DNA of 64,000 bases from Lawsonia intracellularis PHE/MN1-00 (GTDB lineage Bacteria > Desulfobacterota > Desulfovibrionia > Desulfovibrionales > Desulfovibrionaceae): positions 372,001-436,000 of the forward strand of contig NC_008011.1 of the NCBI RefSeq assembly GCF_000055945.1, read 5' to 3'. The notes under the pieces were generated by a model. That model was given only the letters and a program-made list of their open reading frames with translations. It was not told where the DNA came from and searched no databases. The translations under genes and the position numbers were made by a program. Position 1 is the stretch's first letter; each line of letters starts with the position of its first letter. Shown here in pieces: positions 13,645 to 48,386 of the stretch.

Positions 13645-15228
13645 TTACTTTTTCCGTACTTTTTTCATATAATGTATTTGTATATACTTTAATAACAGAA
13701 TACCAATAATAACACATTCACTAAAAAGAATATGTATAAGTTTATGGCCATCTTTAAAATAAACAAAAGCCAACCAACGAATATTTGTTACGTCAATATG
13801 TCGCAGACTAAAACCTAATCCAGCAGCACATATAACTATACAGAAAGATGTAATAATCCACCTTATATTAAAATGGATTTTCCATATAGAAGATTTTATA
13901 TAAAAATATTTTTTTATACAGATTAATAAAACTATTAAAATAATAAGAAAACCAGTAATAAAAAAATTTAATGTAGACGTCAATACACTTACACATCCAA
14001 TAAGTAATAAAACTAATGTATAATACAGAATATATTTCCTTTTATATTTTAATCCAATAGAAAAAAAGAATAAAAATATACTAACTACCCCTGTAATAAT
14101 GCCTCCTAGTTCAATCATCCAGACAGGAAGCAACATTTCTAATAGTTTCATATTATAATAGCGAACAGGAAACACAGCCATAAAACATAACATGATACCT
14201 GTAGTGAAAATAATAACAGAAGTAATTGTTGGAATATGTATCCTTATATATCTCCCCATTTTGTTTAAGAATTTGATATTCTCTTGTGTTTGTTGGTTAA
14301 CTTCATACATAAGATACATAGCTGCAGCAATTATTAATGGTATGAGATAATAAATAACACGAAAGCATAATAGTGCCGCAAGGATAGCCTGGGGAGTAGT
14401 GTTTGTTAAATGAATAACCACGATCTCAAGTACTCCTGCACCTCCAGGGACATGAGTTAAGACAACTGCAACCATAGCCATTAAGTAAGTTGGAAGAAAT
14501 TGTATAAAAGATATACCTGCATCTTCTGGAAGGAGTACATATAAACATGCTGACGCTGCTACAAGATCTGCACTAGCGACAACTGCTTGAGCTATAGCAA
14601 TATTAAATGGAGGAAATGAAAACTCTTTACCAAAAATATGTACTGGTTTATGAATCAGTTTACAAATAAAAAGATATCCTGCAGCTAATGCAAATAAAAC
14701 AACACCTAATGGACGAATATCTTCAGTTGGAAAATATACTGCCAGCTCAGGAGGAATAGCTGGTGGAACAAACATAAAAATCAGTCCTGCTAGTCCAAAA
14801 GCACCAACCCAAAAAGTAATGGCAAGCATAAGGACAAGCTTTACAATTTCCATAGGAGAAAATCCCCAAGACGAATAAAGTCTATATCGAATGGTACTTC
14901 CCCCAAGTAATGCACCAAAATTATAACTTACTGCTTGCCCCACAAAAGAAACAAGTGCTACCTTCTTTAAAGGAAGTCTTTTATGAATGCCTTTTAATGC
15001 AAGCCAATCATACCCAACAAGAATTATATAATTTAAGATAGCTAGCAAAGCAGATAAAAACAAACTCCAATAAGAAATGCTTTCAACACTCATTTTAAGT
15101 TCGGAAAAACTATATTTACTAACTTCGCGATATAATAAATATACAGCACCAATAAAAATGCATGCAACAAGCATAATCCCCATTGTATGCGTCATTTTCT
15201 TAATAATTCTTACTATATCCTTTAACAT
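13645..15228 (-). CDS. MprF-like polytopic membrane protein (flippase half only)
   Basis: A 527-residue integral membrane protein of the lysylphosphatidylglycerol synthase transmembrane family. The frame is open from a TTG at 15249, but ATG 15228 has GGAG five bases upstream. The segment LVSFVGQAVSYNFGALLGGS, the RYRLYSSWGFSPMEIV turn and LTHVPGGAGVLEIVV match MprF-type flippase cores. About 12-14 membrane segments can be drawn, including the second membrane bundle that in MprF precedes the soluble synthase. The protein ends at HYMKKVRKK directly after that bundle, so the catalytic aminoacyl-transfer domain is missing. It may move lipids rather than synthesise aminoacyl lipids. Confidence 0.8.
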   Translation of the reverse strand: MLKDIVRIIKKMTHTMGIMLVACIFIGAVYLLYREVSKYSFSELKMSVESISYWSLFLSALLAILNYIILVGYDWLALKGIHKRLPLKKVALVSFVGQAVSYNFGALLGGSTIRYRLYSSWGFSPMEIVKLVLMLAITFWVGAFGLAGLIFMFVPPAIPPELAVYFPTEDIRPLGVVLFALAAGYLFICKLIHKPVHIFGKEFSFPPFNIAIAQAVVASADLVAASACLYVLLPEDAGISFIQFLPTYLMAMVAVVLTHVPGGAGVLEIVVIHLTNTTPQAILAALLCFRVIYYLIPLIIAAAMYLMYEVNQQTQENIKFLNKMGRYIRIHIPTITSVIIFTTGIMLCFMAVFPVRYYNMKLLEMLLPVWMIELGGIITGVVSIFLFFFSIGLKYKRKYILYYTLVLLLIGCVSVLTSTLNFFITGFLIILIVLLICIKKYFYIKSSIWKIHFNIRWIITSFCIVICAAGLGFSLRHIDVTNIRWLAFVYFKDGHKLIHILFSECVIIGILLLKYIQIHYMKKVRKK

Positions 15229-15399
15229 GTATTCTCCATAATTTTGCAAAACAAAGAATGTAATGTAGTCATTATGAAATTATATATTATTTCAACCTTA
15301 ACTTCATATACATTATCAACTAACTTTATTATAATATATGTAAATCTAATAGTATTTATTTCTATCTCACTAACTATAATTTTTTCCTTTCTACCCTGG

Positions 15400-39408: not shown

Positions 39409-41466
39409 ATGCGCTACCACACGCATGTTTCAGATCAAACACTACAAGCCATACAAAACAATGAGTGGCTAGAAACAAATATTTTGGGAGATTATTCTTC
39501 AAGTACGCTTAGTTTTAAAAACACTCGGAAATACCATGGATTACTTATTGCAAATCTTGAACAACCACATGGACGCCACTTACTTGTTTCAACCTTAGAA
39601 GATGCAATAATAACTAATGACATAACTTATGAAATATCTTCTCGTGAACATGAAAATATTGTTTATCCAGATGGACTTAAACACCTTATTTCCACAGGGA
39701 TAACCTATTGTCCTCAATGTATATATACATTAGACGATATACAAATCTGTCGAGAAATAATGCTCCTTGGTGATCAAAATACAACACTTGTACGTTATAC
39801 CCTCTATGGTGCTAACAATAAGCGTCATACATTAAGAATTAGGCCTTTATTAGCCTTTAGAAGTATACACAAGCTATCAACTGCCAACGACATATTACGT
39901 AAAGATGTAGAAACAGTCTATAATGGTTTTTCAATAAAACCTTATGAGTCTCTTCCAACACTATTTGTTCAATCCTTTGATCCACACTCATTTATTTATA
40001 CACCAAACTGGTACTATGCTATTGAGTACCCTATAGAAAAAGAACGTGGCTATCCTTACAAAGAAGATCTTTTTGTTCCTGGAGAATTACATATAGACTT
40101 GCAACCCTATGCTCCTGTTATCATAAGTTTTAGTACTAAACTCCTAACTACAACTGAAAATCCCATTATTTTATGGAATAATGAAGTAATACGCCATCAA
40201 CAAATTAACTCTTCAGAACACTCTATTACAACGACACTATATAATGCAGGCGAACAACTTTTTACGACTATTTCAAAAGAAAATAGCAATATTGTTGCTG
40301 GATATCATTGGTTTGATTCATGGGGAAGAGATACCTGTATTAGTTTGCCAGGTCTTTCATTCTGCACAAATAATATTGAACTTGGTAAAAAGGTTATCAA
40401 AACAGCTATTGATTCAATGCGCTATGGTATAATACCTAATATTTTTGGTGGAAATGACAAATCACATGCTTTCAATTGTATTGATACTTCACTATGGTTT
40501 ATTTGGGCCATTCAACAGTTTATGCTCACTGAACCTCAACAACAAGAATGGATTTACGAAAACTGCTGGAGTGCCATAAAGTCTATTATTACTGCTTACC
40601 GTGATCCAACAATATCTGGATGTACTATTGATGAATCAGGCCTTATTGCTGCAGGAACCCCAATAACACAACTAACTTGGATGGATGCATCCATTAATGG
40701 AATCCCTGTAACACCAAGAAATGGATATCCTGTTGAAATTAATGCACTATGGTATAATGCATTAGCCTTTTCAGGATACCTTGCAAAACTCTATAAAGAA
40801 CCATTTGATACTTACTATCAACCACTTGATACTATGCGCCAAGCTTTTAAAGAGCGGTTTCTAACAAAAGGGATATATTACTACTTAGGTGATGTATGGA
40901 ATAACAATCTATTAGACACTTCTATTCGTCCTAATCAACTATTTGCTATTTCACTTCCTTTTCCTATTCTTGAAAAAGAATATCATGCAGATGTATTACG
41001 TACTGTAACAACGACATTACTTACACCCTATGGATTAAGAACTCTAGACCCATCTAATCCTGCCTACAAAGGTATCTGTGAGGGATCTCAAGAAGAAAGG
41101 GATAAAGCATATCATCAAGGTACAGTATGGCCATGGCTTCTTGGTGCATATGGTGATGCATTACTCCAGTCAGCAGCCTTCCCAGAACTTGCATTACAAC
41201 AACTTCTTTTCTTTCTTACTCCACTGTTTACTATTCACCTTGAAGAGGCAGGTATAGGCTTTATATCTGAAATTTTTGATGGAGATAGCCCACATCTTCC
41301 AAGAGGATGTATTGCTCAAGCTTGGAGCATTGGAGAATGTATAAGACTTCTCTACCGTAGTGAAAAAGAATTCCCTACTGTTTTTAAAACATGGAAGAAT
41401 TATTTAGCTTCTTATAAAGAAGCGCCACTTTATGATACAACAACCTTAACAAGATATTTAAAATAA
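39409..41466 (+). CDS. Amylo-alpha-1,6-glucosidase (glycogen debranching enzyme, GH133-like)
   Basis: A 685-residue debranching enzyme that hydrolyses the alpha-1,6 branch stub of limit dextrin. The N-terminal beta domain opens with NTRKYHGLLIANLEQPHGRH. The catalytic (alpha/alpha)6 domain has HWFDSWGRDTCISLPGL, NCIDTSLWFIWAIQQF, GTPITQLTWMDASI and HQGTVWPWLLGAYGDALL. Only the glucosidase part is present, without a transferase domain, as in archaeal and many bacterial types. CAGGAG lies before ATG. It leads a four-gene operon, 18 bases before the glycosyltransferase gene. Confidence 0.93.
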   Translation: MRYHTHVSDQTLQAIQNNEWLETNILGDYSSSTLSFKNTRKYHGLLIANLEQPHGRHLLVSTLEDAIITNDITYEISSREHENIVYPDGLKHLISTGITYCPQCIYTLDDIQICREIMLLGDQNTTLVRYTLYGANNKRHTLRIRPLLAFRSIHKLSTANDILRKDVETVYNGFSIKPYESLPTLFVQSFDPHSFIYTPNWYYAIEYPIEKERGYPYKEDLFVPGELHIDLQPYAPVIISFSTKLLTTTENPIILWNNEVIRHQQINSSEHSITTTLYNAGEQLFTTISKENSNIVAGYHWFDSWGRDTCISLPGLSFCTNNIELGKKVIKTAIDSMRYGIIPNIFGGNDKSHAFNCIDTSLWFIWAIQQFMLTEPQQQEWIYENCWSAIKSIITAYRDPTISGCTIDESGLIAAGTPITQLTWMDASINGIPVTPRNGYPVEINALWYNALAFSGYLAKLYKEPFDTYYQPLDTMRQAFKERFLTKGIYYYLGDVWNNNLLDTSIRPNQLFAISLPFPILEKEYHADVLRTVTTTLLTPYGLRTLDPSNPAYKGICEGSQEERDKAYHQGTVWPWLLGAYGDALLQSAAFPELALQQLLFFLTPLFTIHLEEAGIGFISEIFDGDSPHLPRGCIAQAWSIGECIRLLYRSEKEFPTVFKTWKNYLASYKEAPLYDTTTLTRYLK

Positions 41467-41484
41467 CTTGGAGGAGCATAAATT

Positions 41485-42825
41485 ATGCGTATTCTCATGT
41501 TTGGTTGGGAATTTCCTCCATATTTAAGTGGAGGATTAGGAACAGCATGTTATGGAATGACTCAGGCTCTTATTCGATCAGGAGCCAAAATTGTCTTTAT
41601 TCTTCCTCGATCAGAACACAGCTCACGCTATGTCGAACAAAATAAACATTTTCCTAAAATACGTTCTGCTGCTGATGTTTGTATTACACAACATAAACAA
41701 CTTGGTTACTTCACTCAACAATTTCAAGAAATCTGGAAGAAAAACTTTTCTATCCGTCCTATTAAAGCAACACTTCATCCATATGTTTCCTTTAGTCAAA
41801 CACTTTCTGCTTATTATTCTACTCAGAATCATTTAACTGAACACAATGAATTCTCTACAGTTAGTTCAGCATGTGCTTTACCTCCTTGTTCTGGTGGATA
41901 TGGTCCACACTTAATGGAAGAAGTATTCCGTTATAGCCAAGCTGCTGCACAAATAGCTATGGAAGAAATGTATGATGTTATTCATGTCCATGACTGGATG
42001 ACATACCCTGCTGGAATCATAGCTAAAAAAATTAGTAATAAACCACTTATTGCCCATGTTCATGCTACAGAATTTGATCGATGTGGTGACTCACCTAATC
42101 AAGATATTCTAAATATAGAAAAGGTTGGTCTTGAGCGTGCTGATCATATTATTGCTGTCAGCCACTATACTCGTAATCTTATTATGAAAAAATATCATAT
42201 TCCAGGAGAAAAAATTAGTGTTGTTCATAATGCTGTACTTCCAGCATCTGGAAATTATACATGGCAGAAAAAAAGAAATTCAAACAAAAAGTATGTACTC
42301 TTCCTTGGAAGAGTTACACATCAAAAAGCCCCTGAACACTTTATAAATGCTGCATATCTTGTTTCAAAAAAATTACAAAATGTATGTTTTATCATGGCTG
42401 GTAGCGGGGATATGTTACCCTCAATGATCCGTAAAGTAGCTTCATTACGCCTTGGGAGTCGTTTCCACTTTACTGGCTTTTTACATAACCAACAAGTTGA
42501 ACATATATATTCTCTTAGCAATGTATATGTTATGCCTAGTATTTCTGAACCATTTGGAATTACACCACTTGAAGCTATAAGACATGGAACACCTGTAATT
42601 ATATCAAAACAATCCGGAGTTAGTGAAGTATTAAAGAGTGCACTCCAAGTAGACTTCTGGGATATAGAAAGACTTGCTCATTTAATTTGCTCTTTACTTA
42701 CATATCCAAAACTTGAGAAATCAATAATGGGACTAGCTTATAATGAACTACAAAGTATCCGTTGGGAAAATTCAGCTCAACAACTTTGTCACATTTACTC
42801 TAAATTTAACAAAAATGGACAATAA
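41485..42825 (+). CDS. GT4-family glycosyltransferase, probable alpha-glucan synthase
   Basis: A 446-residue GT-B protein. It starts ILMFGWEFPPYLSGGLGTAC, a glycogen/starch-synthase-like donor loop. The acceptor half has YDVIHVHDWMTYPAGIIAKK, and the C-terminal donor site has LFLGRVTHQKAPEHFI and VMPSISEPFGITPLEAIRHG, carrying the E-x7-E pair of GT4. Its position among glucan genes suggests glucan primer or maltodextrin synthesis. GT4 members also make trehalose and other sugars, so donor and acceptor are not fixed by these motifs. GGAGGAG precedes the start. Confidence 0.85.
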   Translation: MRILMFGWEFPPYLSGGLGTACYGMTQALIRSGAKIVFILPRSEHSSRYVEQNKHFPKIRSAADVCITQHKQLGYFTQQFQEIWKKNFSIRPIKATLHPYVSFSQTLSAYYSTQNHLTEHNEFSTVSSACALPPCSGGYGPHLMEEVFRYSQAAAQIAMEEMYDVIHVHDWMTYPAGIIAKKISNKPLIAHVHATEFDRCGDSPNQDILNIEKVGLERADHIIAVSHYTRNLIMKKYHIPGEKISVVHNAVLPASGNYTWQKKRNSNKKYVLFLGRVTHQKAPEHFINAAYLVSKKLQNVCFIMAGSGDMLPSMIRKVASLRLGSRFHFTGFLHNQQVEHIYSLSNVYVMPSISEPFGITPLEAIRHGTPVIISKQSGVSEVLKSALQVDFWDIERLAHLICSLLTYPKLEKSIMGLAYNELQSIRWENSAQQLCHIYSKFNKNGQ

Positions 42826-42827
42826 CT

Positions 42828-44114
42828 ATGCCCTCTATTTGCTTTTACTTTCAAGTACATCAACCTTTTAGGCTAAGAAACTATTCTTTTTTTGAAATTG
42901 GCGTAAATCCTTTCTATGAGGATGAAGAACATAACCGCCATGTGATGCATAAAGTAGCAAGAGGCTGTTACTTACCAATGAATAGACTTTTGCTAAAGCT
43001 TATTCATCAATATGATCAAAAATTTAAAATAAGTTTTTCTATATCTGGAACAGCTCTTGAACAATTCGAACGCTATTCCCCAGAAGTTATTACAACATTT
43101 CAAGAGCTTGCAGATACAGGCTGTGTAGAATTTCTAACAGAAACTTACTATCATTCTCTTGCTTTCATGTTTTCACCTTATGAATTCAAAGAACAAGTGA
43201 CACTTCATCAGCAAAGAATAAAAGAGCTCTTTAAAATTACCCCCCATGTATTCCGTAATACTGAACTTATTTACACAAATGAACTAGCAAAATGTATTGA
43301 AAACATGGGGTACATAGGTATTTTGGCTGAAGGAGCTGATCATATTCTTAACTGGAGAAGTCCTAATTATGTTTATCGTCCTCTGGGCTGTAATAATCTT
43401 AAACTTCTTCTTAAAAACTATAGACTTTCTGATGATATAGCATTCCGTTTTTCAAATAAAGACTGGATAGGATATCCATTAACTGCCGAACGCTTTACAC
43501 AATGGATTAACGATTCAGGAGGTTCAAATGAAACTATTAATCTCTTTATGGATTATGAAACCTTTGGTGAGCACCAATGGGCAGATACAGGTATTTTTGC
43601 CTTTATGGAAGCACTACCACATTATTTGCTACAATCAAATAATCAATTTTTAACACCTACAGAAGTTGCGACTACATTCACACCAGTTGCAGAGCTTGAC
43701 ATACCATATCCTGTTTCTTGGGCAGATACAGAAAGAGATCTAACAGCCTGGACAGGTAATGAGATGCAACAAGATGCTATTGAACGTCTTTATCGTTTAG
43801 AACCTTTAGTAAGGGAATATGGATGTGAACAAATTCTTAATACATGGAAACGACTACAAACATCAGATCATTTTTACTACATGTGCACAAAATGGTTTTC
43901 TGATGGAGATGTTCATAAATACTTCAATCCATACCCATCACCATATGATGCCTATATTAATTATATGAATATACTTACAGATCTTGAAAGCAGAATTACC
44001 CTACAACCAAATAGTAATACTTATTCTAACCAACATACCATGAAAGCACATTATAACGATGTAACTCCTCTTTTATCACCTACAACTTGCTTCAATAATT
44101 TACAAAACCTATAA
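42828..44114 (+). CDS. Glycoside hydrolase family 57 alpha-glucanohydrolase or branching enzyme
   Basis: A 428-residue GH57 protein. Conserved region 1 is FYFQVHQPFRLRNY (His11), region 3 is HVFRNTELIYTNE with the nucleophile Glu146, and region 4 is LFMDYETFGEHQWADTG with the acid Asp242. This pattern fits alpha-amylase-type GH57. The family also includes 4-alpha-glucanotransferases and branching enzymes, and because no GH13 branching enzyme is nearby, a branching role is possible. There is no signal peptide, so it acts in the cytoplasm. It begins two bases after the GT4 gene and ends nine bases before the fusion gene. Confidence 0.88.
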   Translation: MPSICFYFQVHQPFRLRNYSFFEIGVNPFYEDEEHNRHVMHKVARGCYLPMNRLLLKLIHQYDQKFKISFSISGTALEQFERYSPEVITTFQELADTGCVEFLTETYYHSLAFMFSPYEFKEQVTLHQQRIKELFKITPHVFRNTELIYTNELAKCIENMGYIGILAEGADHILNWRSPNYVYRPLGCNNLKLLLKNYRLSDDIAFRFSNKDWIGYPLTAERFTQWINDSGGSNETINLFMDYETFGEHQWADTGIFAFMEALPHYLLQSNNQFLTPTEVATTFTPVAELDIPYPVSWADTERDLTAWTGNEMQQDAIERLYRLEPLVREYGCEQILNTWKRLQTSDHFYYMCTKWFSDGDVHKYFNPYPSPYDAYINYMNILTDLESRITLQPNSNTYSNQHTMKAHYNDVTPLLSPTTCFNNLQNL

Positions 44115-44123
44115 GGAATAGTT

Positions 44124-47100
44124 ATGCAGCAGGCAGTTGAACAAACAACACTTTTTGAAGTTAGCTGGGAAGTCTGTAATAAAGTCGGAGGGATTTATAC
44201 AGTAGTAACTACCAAAGTCCCTCAAGCAATAAAGACTTTTGGAGACAATTATTATCTTATTGGACCCAACTTAGGAAATAATGCAGATTTTCAAGAAACA
44301 GATGAACCTTGCTGGGAAACATTAAGCCAATCACTTGCTATAAGAAGTCTTCATTGTCGTTTTGGTCGTTGGAATATTCCAGGAAATCCTAAGGTTATTC
44401 TAGTCAACTTTAAAGATAGATATAACCAAAATCAATTATTATATGAATTTTGGAATAGATATGGTGTCGACTCTATGACAGGAGGCTGGGACTATATTGA
44501 ACCAGTTATGTTTGGTTCAGCTTGTGGCGAAGTTATTAATATAGCAGTCAAAACACTTGTAGAACCTGTTGGTGGAACAGCTGTTGCTCATTTTCATGAA
44601 TGGATGTGTGGTAGTGGATTACTCACTATTAAACAACTTGCTCCAGATGTAGGAACAGTTTTTACCACACATGCAACTATTCTTGGACGATCAATGGCTG
44701 GTGCAGGCATTGATATTTATGAAAATCTCTCACAAATAAATCCACAAAGAGAAGCTGCTGCTTATAATATAACTGCTAAACAATCCATGGAATCTATTAC
44801 TGCTCGTGAGGCAGATTACTTCACAACAGTTAGTGAAATTACAGCTGATGAAGCAGAAGCTTTTCTTGGACGTCGTCCTGATATTATTACACCCAATGGA
44901 TTAGATTTACACATCATAGCTGACTTTAGTAAGGACACTTCTCTTACTACAACAGCAAGACAATCCATCCTTAGTCGAGCTTCTCAATTTATTGGTCAAC
45001 AACTTCCTAATGATACACGTATTATGATTATTTCTGGTCGATACGAGTTTCATAATAAAGGATTTGATGTCTTTCTTGATGCACTAGGAAATGTCGAACA
45101 AGCATTAAGAAACTCAAATAAATATGTTCTTGCATTATGTACAGCTATTGGAGGACATACTGGTGTCACAAAGTATGCCCTAGAGAATCATCTTGAATCA
45201 AATATGATTACTCCTCCTATGCCACTCCGTATTGTAACTCATCATGTTTATAATATAGAGCAAGATCCTATTATTACAAAATGTTTGAGATTAGGACTCA
45301 CAAATCATGAAGAAGACCATGTAAAAATTATATTTGTACCTGCGCTTCTTAATGGTCAAGACGGTTTCTTTAATATGCAATATGAACAAGTACTGCCAGG
45401 ATGTGACCTTGGGGTATTCCCATCATGGTATGAACCATGGGGATATACACCTCAAGAAAGTGCTGCTCATGCCGTTCCTACAGTTACAACTGATCTTTCA
45501 GGTTTTGGAATGTGGGTACGTAAACTCCAAGAAAATAACCATGTTACAGATGGTATTTCTGTCATACATCGGCTGCATATGCCATATGACGATACTGTTA
45601 ATGCACTTCAATCTGTTATACTGGAATATGCAACCTGTTCATCAGAAAAACTTATGCAACATCGAATAGCTGTGCGTAAAGTCTCTGAAGAATGTTCATG
45701 GGAGAAATTTTTCCCATATTATATTCAATCATATCATTCTGCACTTGCAAAAGCCAACGAGCGTATCAGCATACATGAACCACAAAAACAAACAAACACA
45801 CTTGTTATTACAGGTGTATCAAAAACACCTAATCTTAGAATGCTTACAGCAATTAACCAACTTCCACAAAAACTTGGACGACTCAGAGAAGTTGTGAATA
45901 ATGTTTGGTGGACCTGGCAGCCTGAAGCAGAAACCATCTTCACTTTACTGAGCAAAGAACTATGGAAACAATCAGGCCATAACCCACTCAAAATGCTTGA
46001 AGATATATGCCCTGCAGCCCTTATGGCAGCAGAAAAAAATACAGAAATACAGGAATGTTATAACGAATTGATCACAAAATTTGATGAATATATGAAGAAT
46101 AAACCTCACACAACTGATCCTTCTATTTCATCTTACCATCCTATTGCATATTTCTCTACAGAATATGGCTTACATGAGAGCATCCCGCTCTACTCTGGTG
46201 GATTAGGTATCCTTTCTGGCGATCATCTTAAGGCAGCTAGTGACTTAAACATTCCCATGGTTGCTATAGGACTTTTATACAAAAATGGCTATTTCCAACA
46301 ACGAATAGATGCTCAAGGCAATCAAATTGCTATGTATCCTGAAAATAACTTCTCTCTTCTTCCTATTTCTCTTGTAAAAACACTTCAAGGAGATCCTGTT
46401 AGAATAGAGCTAGATCTTTTCCCAGGAAGACAACTTTTTGCACAAGTATGGAAAATGCAAGTAGGTCATGTACCACTCTACTTACTTGACACTGATATTC
46501 CACAAAATATTCTAGACGATCGAAGAATTACAGCACGACTTTATGAATCAGATAGAGACTGTAGAATACGACAAGAAATTCTATTAGGAATGGGTGGTGT
46601 AAGATTATTGAATCTACTTAAGATTATGCCTTCTATCTACCACATGAATGAAGGGCACTCTGCTTTTATGATTTTAGAAAGAATTCGTAACCTGATGCTT
46701 TGGTTCAATCTACCATTCAATACAGCTCAAGAATGTGTACGTGGTAATACAGTATTTACTACACATACACCTGTTGATGCTGGTAATGAACGATTTGATC
46801 CTAGTTTAATGGAAAAATATTTTTCAGATTATGCAAAATCTGTCAACCTTACATGGAATGACTTCATGAGTCTTGGCAGATTTTCCACAAATGATAGAAA
46901 CATGTTTGAAATGACACTCCTTGCTATTCGGAATGCAAATAAAGTAAATGGAGTTAGTAGATTACATAGCCAAGTCTCTAAACATATGTGGGCTAATAAT
47001 TGGAAAGGATTACCTGTTCCTGAAATACCTATTGGATATGTTACAAACGGAGTACATATTGCATCTTATGTTGGAGAACATACACGAAAACTTCTCAAAA

Positions 47101-48386
47101 AGTATGTGCATGAATTATGGGATAGCCTACCCACATCCCATGAGGCATGGAAAAATGTTGCACAAATTCCTGATGAAGAATTATGGAAAGCTAGGTTAGA
47201 ACAAAAGCAGCCTCTTCTTAATGTAATAAAACATCTGGCTATGTCATCTAACCTCTCCTATAAAATCTTTGCAGAAGAACAGCAGAGTATTATACAACAG
47301 CTTTCTGAAGATGTACTTATTATTGGATTTGCAAGACGCTTTGCTCCATATAAAAGAGCTAATCTTATTCTTGCTAACCCTGACAGATTACACCATATTC
47401 TGAACAACCCTCAAAAACCAACAATTCTTGTTTTTGCTGGTAAAGCACATCCAGCTGATCAACAAGGGATTGATCTTATAAAACAAGTAATAAACTATAC
47501 AAAAGATCCTAGATTTTATGGTAAAATATTCTTTATAGAAAATTATAATCTTGCTATTGCAAAAATTCTTCTACAAGGCTGTGATGTTTGGCTTAATACT
47601 CCACGTCGGCCATATGAAGCATGTGGTACAAGTGGTCAAAAAGTAGGTGCTAATGGTGGACTTAATCTTAGTATTGCTGATGGATGGTGGTGTGAAGGCT
47701 ACAACAGTCATAATGGTTGGACAATTGGCAAAGAAATCGTAGACATATTACCTGAATCCGAGCAATGTGACTATAGTGATGCAGAATCCTTATATAGCCT
47801 TTTAGAAGAATCTGTACTTCCACTATATTTTAAAAAGGACACAAATAGCTTTTCTCCTTCATGGATAGCAATGGTCAAAAATGCTATGCAAACCCTTATC
47901 CCTGAATTTAATGCTGAAAGAATGCTTCATCAATATTTAGATGATTATTATCTTCCACTTGCAAAAAATCAGGTAACCTTTAGAGGTGATAACTTTGCTA
48001 TTCCAAAACAAATTACCAAATGGAAACAAGGACTTGAACAACGCTTTGCTACCATTAAAATACGTAATGTCCAAATTGAAGGTTTAACAGAAGATACTGT
48101 GCTTTATGGAGAACCTCTTACTATTACTGTAACGCTTAGTCCTGAATCAATGAAAGTTGATGAACTTCTAGTTCAACTTGTTATAGGTCCTGGAAAAGAT
48201 AATACATTTACAGAAATGCCAGATGTGTTAACACTCATGGTATCACAGCAATCTGGTAAAGAGGTTACATTCTCTGGAGTATATAATATTAAATATAATG
48301 GACCTAATGTTTATGGAATACGTATCTTACCTACAATGCCAGGGTTACTTTCACCATATGAAACAGGGCTTATCCTTTGGGTATAA
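44124..48386 (+). CDS. Fusion of GT3 glycogen synthase and GT35 alpha-glucan phosphorylase
   Basis: One uninterrupted 1420-residue frame. Residues about 8-560 are a GT3, eukaryote-type glycogen synthase: LFEVSWEVCNKVGGIYTVV at the start, FHEWMCGSGLL, and EPWGYTPQE with the catalytic Glu437-x7-Glu445 pair. Residues about 585-1420 are a phosphorylase of the short bacterial/archaeal type: NNVWWTWQPEAE (DUF3417-like), YFSTEYGLHESIPLYSGGLG, HMNEGHSAF, THTPVDAGNERF, and GTSGQKVGANGGLN, where Lys1173 should carry pyridoxal phosphate. Both active sites look intact. Synthesis from nucleotide sugar and phosphorolysis are therefore in one chain, at the end of the operon. Confidence 0.94.
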   Translation: MQQAVEQTTLFEVSWEVCNKVGGIYTVVTTKVPQAIKTFGDNYYLIGPNLGNNADFQETDEPCWETLSQSLAIRSLHCRFGRWNIPGNPKVILVNFKDRYNQNQLLYEFWNRYGVDSMTGGWDYIEPVMFGSACGEVINIAVKTLVEPVGGTAVAHFHEWMCGSGLLTIKQLAPDVGTVFTTHATILGRSMAGAGIDIYENLSQINPQREAAAYNITAKQSMESITAREADYFTTVSEITADEAEAFLGRRPDIITPNGLDLHIIADFSKDTSLTTTARQSILSRASQFIGQQLPNDTRIMIISGRYEFHNKGFDVFLDALGNVEQALRNSNKYVLALCTAIGGHTGVTKYALENHLESNMITPPMPLRIVTHHVYNIEQDPIITKCLRLGLTNHEEDHVKIIFVPALLNGQDGFFNMQYEQVLPGCDLGVFPSWYEPWGYTPQESAAHAVPTVTTDLSGFGMWVRKLQENNHVTDGISVIHRLHMPYDDTVNALQSVILEYATCSSEKLMQHRIAVRKVSEECSWEKFFPYYIQSYHSALAKANERISIHEPQKQTNTLVITGVSKTPNLRMLTAINQLPQKLGRLREVVNNVWWTWQPEAETIFTLLSKELWKQSGHNPLKMLEDICPAALMAAEKNTEIQECYNELITKFDEYMKNKPHTTDPSISSYHPIAYFSTEYGLHESIPLYSGGLGILSGDHLKAASDLNIPMVAIGLLYKNGYFQQRIDAQGNQIAMYPENNFSLLPISLVKTLQGDPVRIELDLFPGRQLFAQVWKMQVGHVPLYLLDTDIPQNILDDRRITARLYESDRDCRIRQEILLGMGGVRLLNLLKIMPSIYHMNEGHSAFMILERIRNLMLWFNLPFNTAQECVRGNTVFTTHTPVDAGNERFDPSLMEKYFSDYAKSVNLTWNDFMSLGRFSTNDRNMFEMTLLAIRNANKVNGVSRLHSQVSKHMWANNWKGLPVPEIPIGYVTNGVHIASYVGEHTRKLLKKYVHELWDSLPTSHEAWKNVAQIPDEELWKARLEQKQPLLNVIKHLAMSSNLSYKIFAEEQQSIIQQLSEDVLIIGFARRFAPYKRANLILANPDRLHHILNNPQKPTILVFAGKAHPADQQGIDLIKQVINYTKDPRFYGKIFFIENYNLAIAKILLQGCDVWLNTPRRPYEACGTSGQKVGANGGLNLSIADGWWCEGYNSHNGWTIGKEIVDILPESEQCDYSDAESLYSLLEESVLPLYFKKDTNSFSPSWIAMVKNAMQTLIPEFNAERMLHQYLDDYYLPLAKNQVTFRGDNFAIPKQITKWKQGLEQRFATIKIRNVQIEGLTEDTVLYGEPLTITVTLSPESMKVDELLVQLVIGPGKDNTFTEMPDVLTLMVSQQSGKEVTFSGVYNIKYNGPNVYGIRILPTMPGLLSPYETGLILWV

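Follow-up and report, generated by a model that had tools for sequence, protein, structure and literature searches.

Glycogen synthesis and breakdown form a textbook pair separated by reciprocal regulation. In Lawsonia intracellularis PHE/MN1-00, a strain of an obligate intracellular pathogen of pigs, a single gene appears to encode enzymes for both, which raises the question of whether the two activities could share a polypeptide and what would set their direction. We analyzed 64,000 nucleotides of contig NC_008011.1 around this gene (the window; positions are counted from its first letter). The initial annotation of the window described a GT3 glycogen synthase and a GT35 glucan phosphorylase in one protein of 1420 residues, a description borne out by a single open reading frame, by Pfam, NCBIfam, and phmmer domain matches, and by recurrence of the fusion in dozens of genomes.

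A single reading frame joins GT3 and GT35

The frame runs without interruption from ATG to stop, and its translation has 0 internal stops. It contains the following features:

44124..48386 (+): fused GT3 glycogen synthase-GT35 alpha-glucan phosphorylase, 1420 aa (single ORF, domain matches)
44145..45758 (+): GT3 half, complete GT-B glycogen synthase, aa ~8-545 (PF05693, phmmer with GYS1/Gsy2p, structural model)
45432..45458 (+): GT3 E-x7-E motif EPWGYTPQE, Glu437 and Glu445 (human Glu510 and Glu518), invariant in 100/100 aligned bacterial sequences
45777..45851 (+): linker, aa 552-576, predicted disordered, length conserved (pLDDT, 91 fused loci)
45861..46184 (+): DUF3417, N-terminal domain of the TIGR02094-type phosphorylase, aa 580-687 (Pfam)
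46143..47957 (+): core of the GT35 half, TIGR02094 at aa 674-1278 (783 bits; 9l6i match)
47616..47642 (+): EACGTSGQK with the pyridoxal-phosphate lysine, Lys1173, aligned with EASGTGNMK of 4l22; Lys invariant in 88/88 sequences
48060..48383 (+): C-terminal ~108 residues of the GT35 half, aa 1313-1420, no named domain, past the 9l6i match

The Pfam model Glycogen_syn (PF05693) matches the GT3 half at residues 12-333 and over a second stretch (E 1.1e-107; 361.6 bits against a cut-off of 27), and human GYS1 and yeast Gsy2p match residues 5-545 in phmmer searches (E ~1e-88). An AlphaFold model covering residues 1-690 (the GT3 half, the linker, and DUF3417) has a mean pLDDT of 85.9, reaching ~90 across most of the GT3 half, and its best PDB matches in Foldseek are GYS1 and Gsy2p. 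The pLDDT falls below 50 at the linker, which measures 24 to 34 residues (median, 28) across the 91 fused loci. The GT35 half is complete (residues ~575-1420) and of the DUF3417/TIGR02094 type according to Pfam and NCBIfam. Phosphorylase PF00343 lies at residues 839-1187, the score of TIGR02094 ("alpha-glucan family phosphorylase") compares with a cut-off of 191.7 bits, and the alpha-glucan phosphorylase 9l6i matches residues 567-1313 (E 8e-178); beyond that match, fused relatives align through to the end of the protein. TIGR02094 phosphorylases such as GlgP, 9l6i, and the maltodextrin phosphorylase of Thermococcales share DUF3417, the phosphorylase core, and the pyridoxal-phosphate lysine with this half, but they stand alone, whereas the Lawsonia GT35 is tethered behind a GT3.

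We also considered a separate GT35 product from an internal start. A Met codon lies near residue 572, but the narrow pattern used found no AGGAG-spaced ATG there. No conserved Met occurs at the GT3/GT35 boundary among the fused relatives compared, and an internal start is not supported.

Both halves keep their catalytic residues

That both halves keep their active-site motifs, as first reported, holds at the level of individual residues in alignments of 100 GT3 and 88 GT35 sequences. The residues of human GYS1 that contact UDP-glucose (Arg211, Arg331, Lys337, and Glu510; PMC9287172) correspond to Arg189, Arg306, Lys312, and Glu437 of the fused protein, each invariant or 99% conserved among the 100 bacterial sequences. 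His845, Lys1077-Arg1078 of the phosphate site, Glu1165, and Lys1173 of the GT35 half are likewise invariant in all 88 sequences. Among near-invariant alignment columns, the Lawsonia protein deviates at none of the 90 in GT3 and at 1 of the 138 in GT35 (S1167C), which suggests that selection acts on both halves even though the genome is reduced. A loss of catalysis in one half is ruled out at the residue level, with all checked catalytic residues kept.

Judging from these residues and from the presence of galU in the genome, UDP-glucose would be the donor of the GT3 half. GYS1 Phe481, which stacks on uracil (PMC9287172), aligns with Leu408 of the fused protein in the phmmer alignment, a replacement that makes the assignment of the donor less certain.

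The two halves differ in branch length in Lawsonia. The terminal branch of the GT35 half is long (0.84 versus 0.24 to 0.53 in sister genera), while that of the GT3 half is ordinary (0.36 versus 0.2 to 0.4). Read from these lengths, the phosphorylase half is changing faster in Lawsonia.

Fused GT3s form a separate class and lack most of the glucose-6-phosphate site

The initial statement that GT3 synthases are mainly eukaryotic is too coarse, as it hides two bacterial classes, one eukaryote-like and stand-alone, the other fused. Stand-alone GT3s of ~600 to 770 residues with a one-piece PF05693 match are found in Bacteroidota, Planctomycetota, and the phylum of the Lentisphaerota genome, and those tested group with human GYS1 in the GT3 tree. 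Together with GYS1 and Gsy2p they share the GT-B fold, the E-x7-E motif, and the UDP-glucose contacts with the fused GT3s but have no fused GT35. By sequence and tree position, the fused GT3s are a class apart from these eukaryote-like bacterial enzymes, a distinction that is new here.

The two classes differ most clearly in regulatory features. The tetramerization domain of GYS1 includes helix alpha16 with Lys429/Arg430 (PMC9287172). The corresponding stretch spans 96 residues in human GYS1 and 96 to 101 in stand-alone bacterial GT3s but only 40 to 50 in the fused and split class; in Lawsonia it has 48 residues, lacking an insert of ~50 residues, and the model places no long helices there. 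Glucose-6-phosphate (G6P) is contacted in the human enzyme by Arg579, Arg582, Arg586, Lys301, His501, Gln294, and His291 (PMC9287172). Only R514 (Arg586) and R279 (Lys301) are kept in Lawsonia, and the counterparts of His291, Gln294, His501, Arg579, and Arg582 are gone. In contrast, the insert is present in stand-alone bacterial GT3s and their site is largely intact, with His291, Gln294, His501, Arg582, and Arg586 kept in 8 of 8 compared. The G6P site and the tetramerization insert are features of the eukaryotic branch and not of GT3 as such. Changes at Arg582/Arg586 are reported to abolish G6P activation (PMC9287172). With the insert absent and the G6P site mostly gone, a eukaryotic-type G6P switch is unlikely to control the fused enzyme.

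The fusion closes a putative glycogen operon

The fused gene is the last of four on the same strand (39409-48386), in the order GDE-GT4-GH57-fusion. Its upstream partners are as follows:

39409..41466 (+): glycogen debranching enzyme (GDE), GDE_N + GDE_C, GH133 (Pfam/NCBIfam; the same neighbor in many fused loci)
41485..42825 (+): GT4/GT5-like glycosyltransferase (domain matches; nearest solved relative GlgM)
42828..44114 (+): GH57 enzyme directly upstream of the fusion, candidate branching enzyme or alpha-glucanotransferase (domain match)

The fusion usually comes last in other genomes as well. GDE, GT4, and GH57 are all found beside it in 44 of the 91 fused loci, and many of the others are cut by contig ends. 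For the GH57 protein (428 aa), whose place in the operon is kept over several phyla, a sequence search of the PDB finds no relative at E 0.001. The closest solved relative of the GT4/GT5-like protein, maltose-1-phosphate synthase GlgM, is a weak match (E 1.8e-18).

Elsewhere in the Lawsonia genome, none of the six NTP-transferases found resembles GlgC in sequence, length, or neighbors, and no GH13 enzyme was found, compared with hits in 13 of 14 control genomes. Since galU is present and neither GlgC nor a GH13 enzyme was found, the operon is probably the whole glycogen pathway of Lawsonia. Its gene content looks like that of a self-contained, UDP-glucose-based glycogen operon.

A predicted bifunctional glycogen synthase-phosphorylase

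We consider it likely that the fused protein is a bifunctional glycogen synthase-phosphorylase. The GT3 half would extend glycogen chains at their non-reducing ends with glucose taken from UDP-glucose, the product of GalU. The pyridoxal-phosphate-dependent GT35 half would act on ends of this same kind and release glucose-1-phosphate, from which GalU could regenerate UDP-glucose. Among the partners, debranching would fall to the GH133 enzyme and branching or chain transfer probably to the GH57 enzyme, and the GT4 product may start or feed chains; alternatively, the GT4 gene could encode the main synthase instead of the GT3 half. For the bifunctional enzyme, we infer that fusion through a short, flexible tether would fix the ratio of synthase to phosphorylase activity at 1:1 and place both on the same glycogen particle, and that direction would most likely be set by metabolite levels, UDP-glucose versus phosphate and glucose-1-phosphate, rather than by the eukaryotic G6P switch.

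The phosphorylase reaction is reversible, and a chain-editing role has been proposed for plastid starch phosphorylase. The GT35 half could accordingly trim or extend short primers for the GT3 half, making the fusion a synthetic machine; its TIGR02094 type, which also matches a maltodextrin phosphorylase model, and the synthesis and transfer enzymes in the same operon would suit such an editor. We regard this as unlikely, as the debranching enzyme in the operon fits full breakdown and the TIGR02094 profile finds no second match in the Lawsonia genome, so that no phosphorylase of that type would be left for degradation. A protein with only one active half, the other serving as a glucan-binding or structural module, has a precedent in the GlgA-GlgB fusion of Waddlia chondrophila, which has a non-functional half (PMC7935935), and would be compatible with the longer branch of the Lawsonia GT35 half. 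This is improbable given that the checked catalytic residues of both halves persist across the four phyla, Lawsonia included.

The fusion is widespread

The initial annotation associated such long proteins with some Deltaproteobacteria; mapping the fusion across genomes, together with the trees below, extends it to at least four phyla, apparently from a single origin. Our same-phylum sample comprised 395 genomes, of which 19 carry a GT3 above the cut-off, all in open frames of 1418 to 1481 residues. Seven of 59 close-relative genomes carry a GT3, and the one short frame among the seven (G001, 725 aa) runs off its contig. Two further genomes listed under the same genus have no GT3 match, one of them (G003; 1.5 Mb) rated 100% complete, indicating that the fusion can be lost and that at least one close relative no longer has the pathway.

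A scan of genome contigs, from which the best 80 loci were kept, recovered Desulfobacterota, two bins with Myxococcota labels, Lentisphaerota, Planctomycetota, and Bacteroidota; this set is biased toward relatives of the Desulfobacterota GT3 and does not measure the frequency of the split form. Over all loci analyzed, 91 are fused, 7 consist of two adjacent genes, and 3 end at a contig end, counts in which a few genomes are possibly included twice and one of the 7 adjacent-gene loci (L124) looks like a broken fusion. Judged by frame length alone, 28 of 33 fusion-class GT3s in the Planctomycetota sample (center genome included) lie in frames of at least 1400 residues, and the phylum of the Lentisphaerota genome has 5 frames of 1421 to 1598 residues. 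An assembly or frame error joining two genes, a possibility raised at the outset, could point to the split form in Bacteroides relatives, but it is ruled out for practical purposes, as is chance, by the same fused frame in dozens of independent genomes, with a nearly constant linker length and a shared frame length in 19 of 19. In two Bacteroidota bins (L112 and L124), a stop or frameshift interrupts the fused frame within a domain and not at the linker, which may reflect either sequencing error or decay.

A probable single old fusion, later split in the Bacteroides line

We built quick trees of 54 GT3 and 49 GT35 sequences. Both trees unite the fused and split proteins in one supported group that excludes stand-alone relatives. 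Within this group, the split forms (Bacteroides, Prevotella, Parabacteroides, and kin) make up a single branch with full support, nested among the fused Bacteroidota. The simplest reading of these trees is one old fusion followed by one split in the Bacteroides/Prevotella/Parabacteroides line. A stand-alone lineage nested elsewhere is possible, because the trees are quick and the GT35 outgroup consists of only four sequences, one of them long-branched. The glycogen synthase/glgP pair of these genera belongs to the same GT3 and GT35 lineages as the fusion, in the same order and directly adjacent, but is encoded by two genes and nested within the fused group. That Bacteroides keeps them as split, adjacent genes shows that covalent joining is dispensable. 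The fusion is a widespread, old architecture that combines two known families, and its GT3s represent a distinct subclass.

Relation to known glycogen systems

We found no description of the fusion in the open-access literature, and the consulted portions of a 2024 review of prokaryotic alpha-glucan enzymes handle GT3 and GT35 separately and do not mention it (PMC11046441). The fused proteins must be present in databases under single-domain names. The single-chain architecture also suggests that glycogen metabolism in Desulfobacterota, Bacteroidota, and Planctomycetota, with Lawsonia among them, would escape surveys relying on GlgC, GlgA-GT5, and GlgB.

Chlamydiae have been described as the only obligate intracellular bacteria to retain glycogen metabolism (PMC7935935), and the Lawsonia literature searched (including PMC10879436 and PMC3463550) does not mention glycogen. 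A working operon would make Lawsonia an exception to this rule. The TreS-Mak and GlgA-GlgB fusions of Chlamydiae (PMC7935935) similarly join glycogen-pathway enzymes in obligate intracellular bacteria, but they involve other families and consecutive steps, whereas the Lawsonia fusion joins opposing reactions. In such a protein, synthase and phosphorylase are inseparable in space or amount; a single-chain version in four phyla, with most of the G6P switch gone, makes the restraint on futile cycling directly testable.

Tentatively, GDE-GT4-GH57-[GT3-GT35] may represent a distinct, hitherto overlooked UDP-glucose-based pathway without GlgC or a GH13 branching enzyme. Its G6P-independent polypeptide might add and remove glucose on the same particle without release, directed by the ratio of UDP-glucose to phosphate, and glycogen metabolism might thereby be kept in an obligate intracellular bacterium outside Chlamydiae.

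The Lawsonia genome also encodes an ATP/ADP translocase, in line with an earlier report (PMC3718617). Elsewhere in the window, an open reading frame of 534 residues (13645-15249, -) matches positions 3-506 only of the 841-position MprF model; the flippase half is present in that frame and the lysyl-phosphatidylglycerol synthetase half is missing from it.
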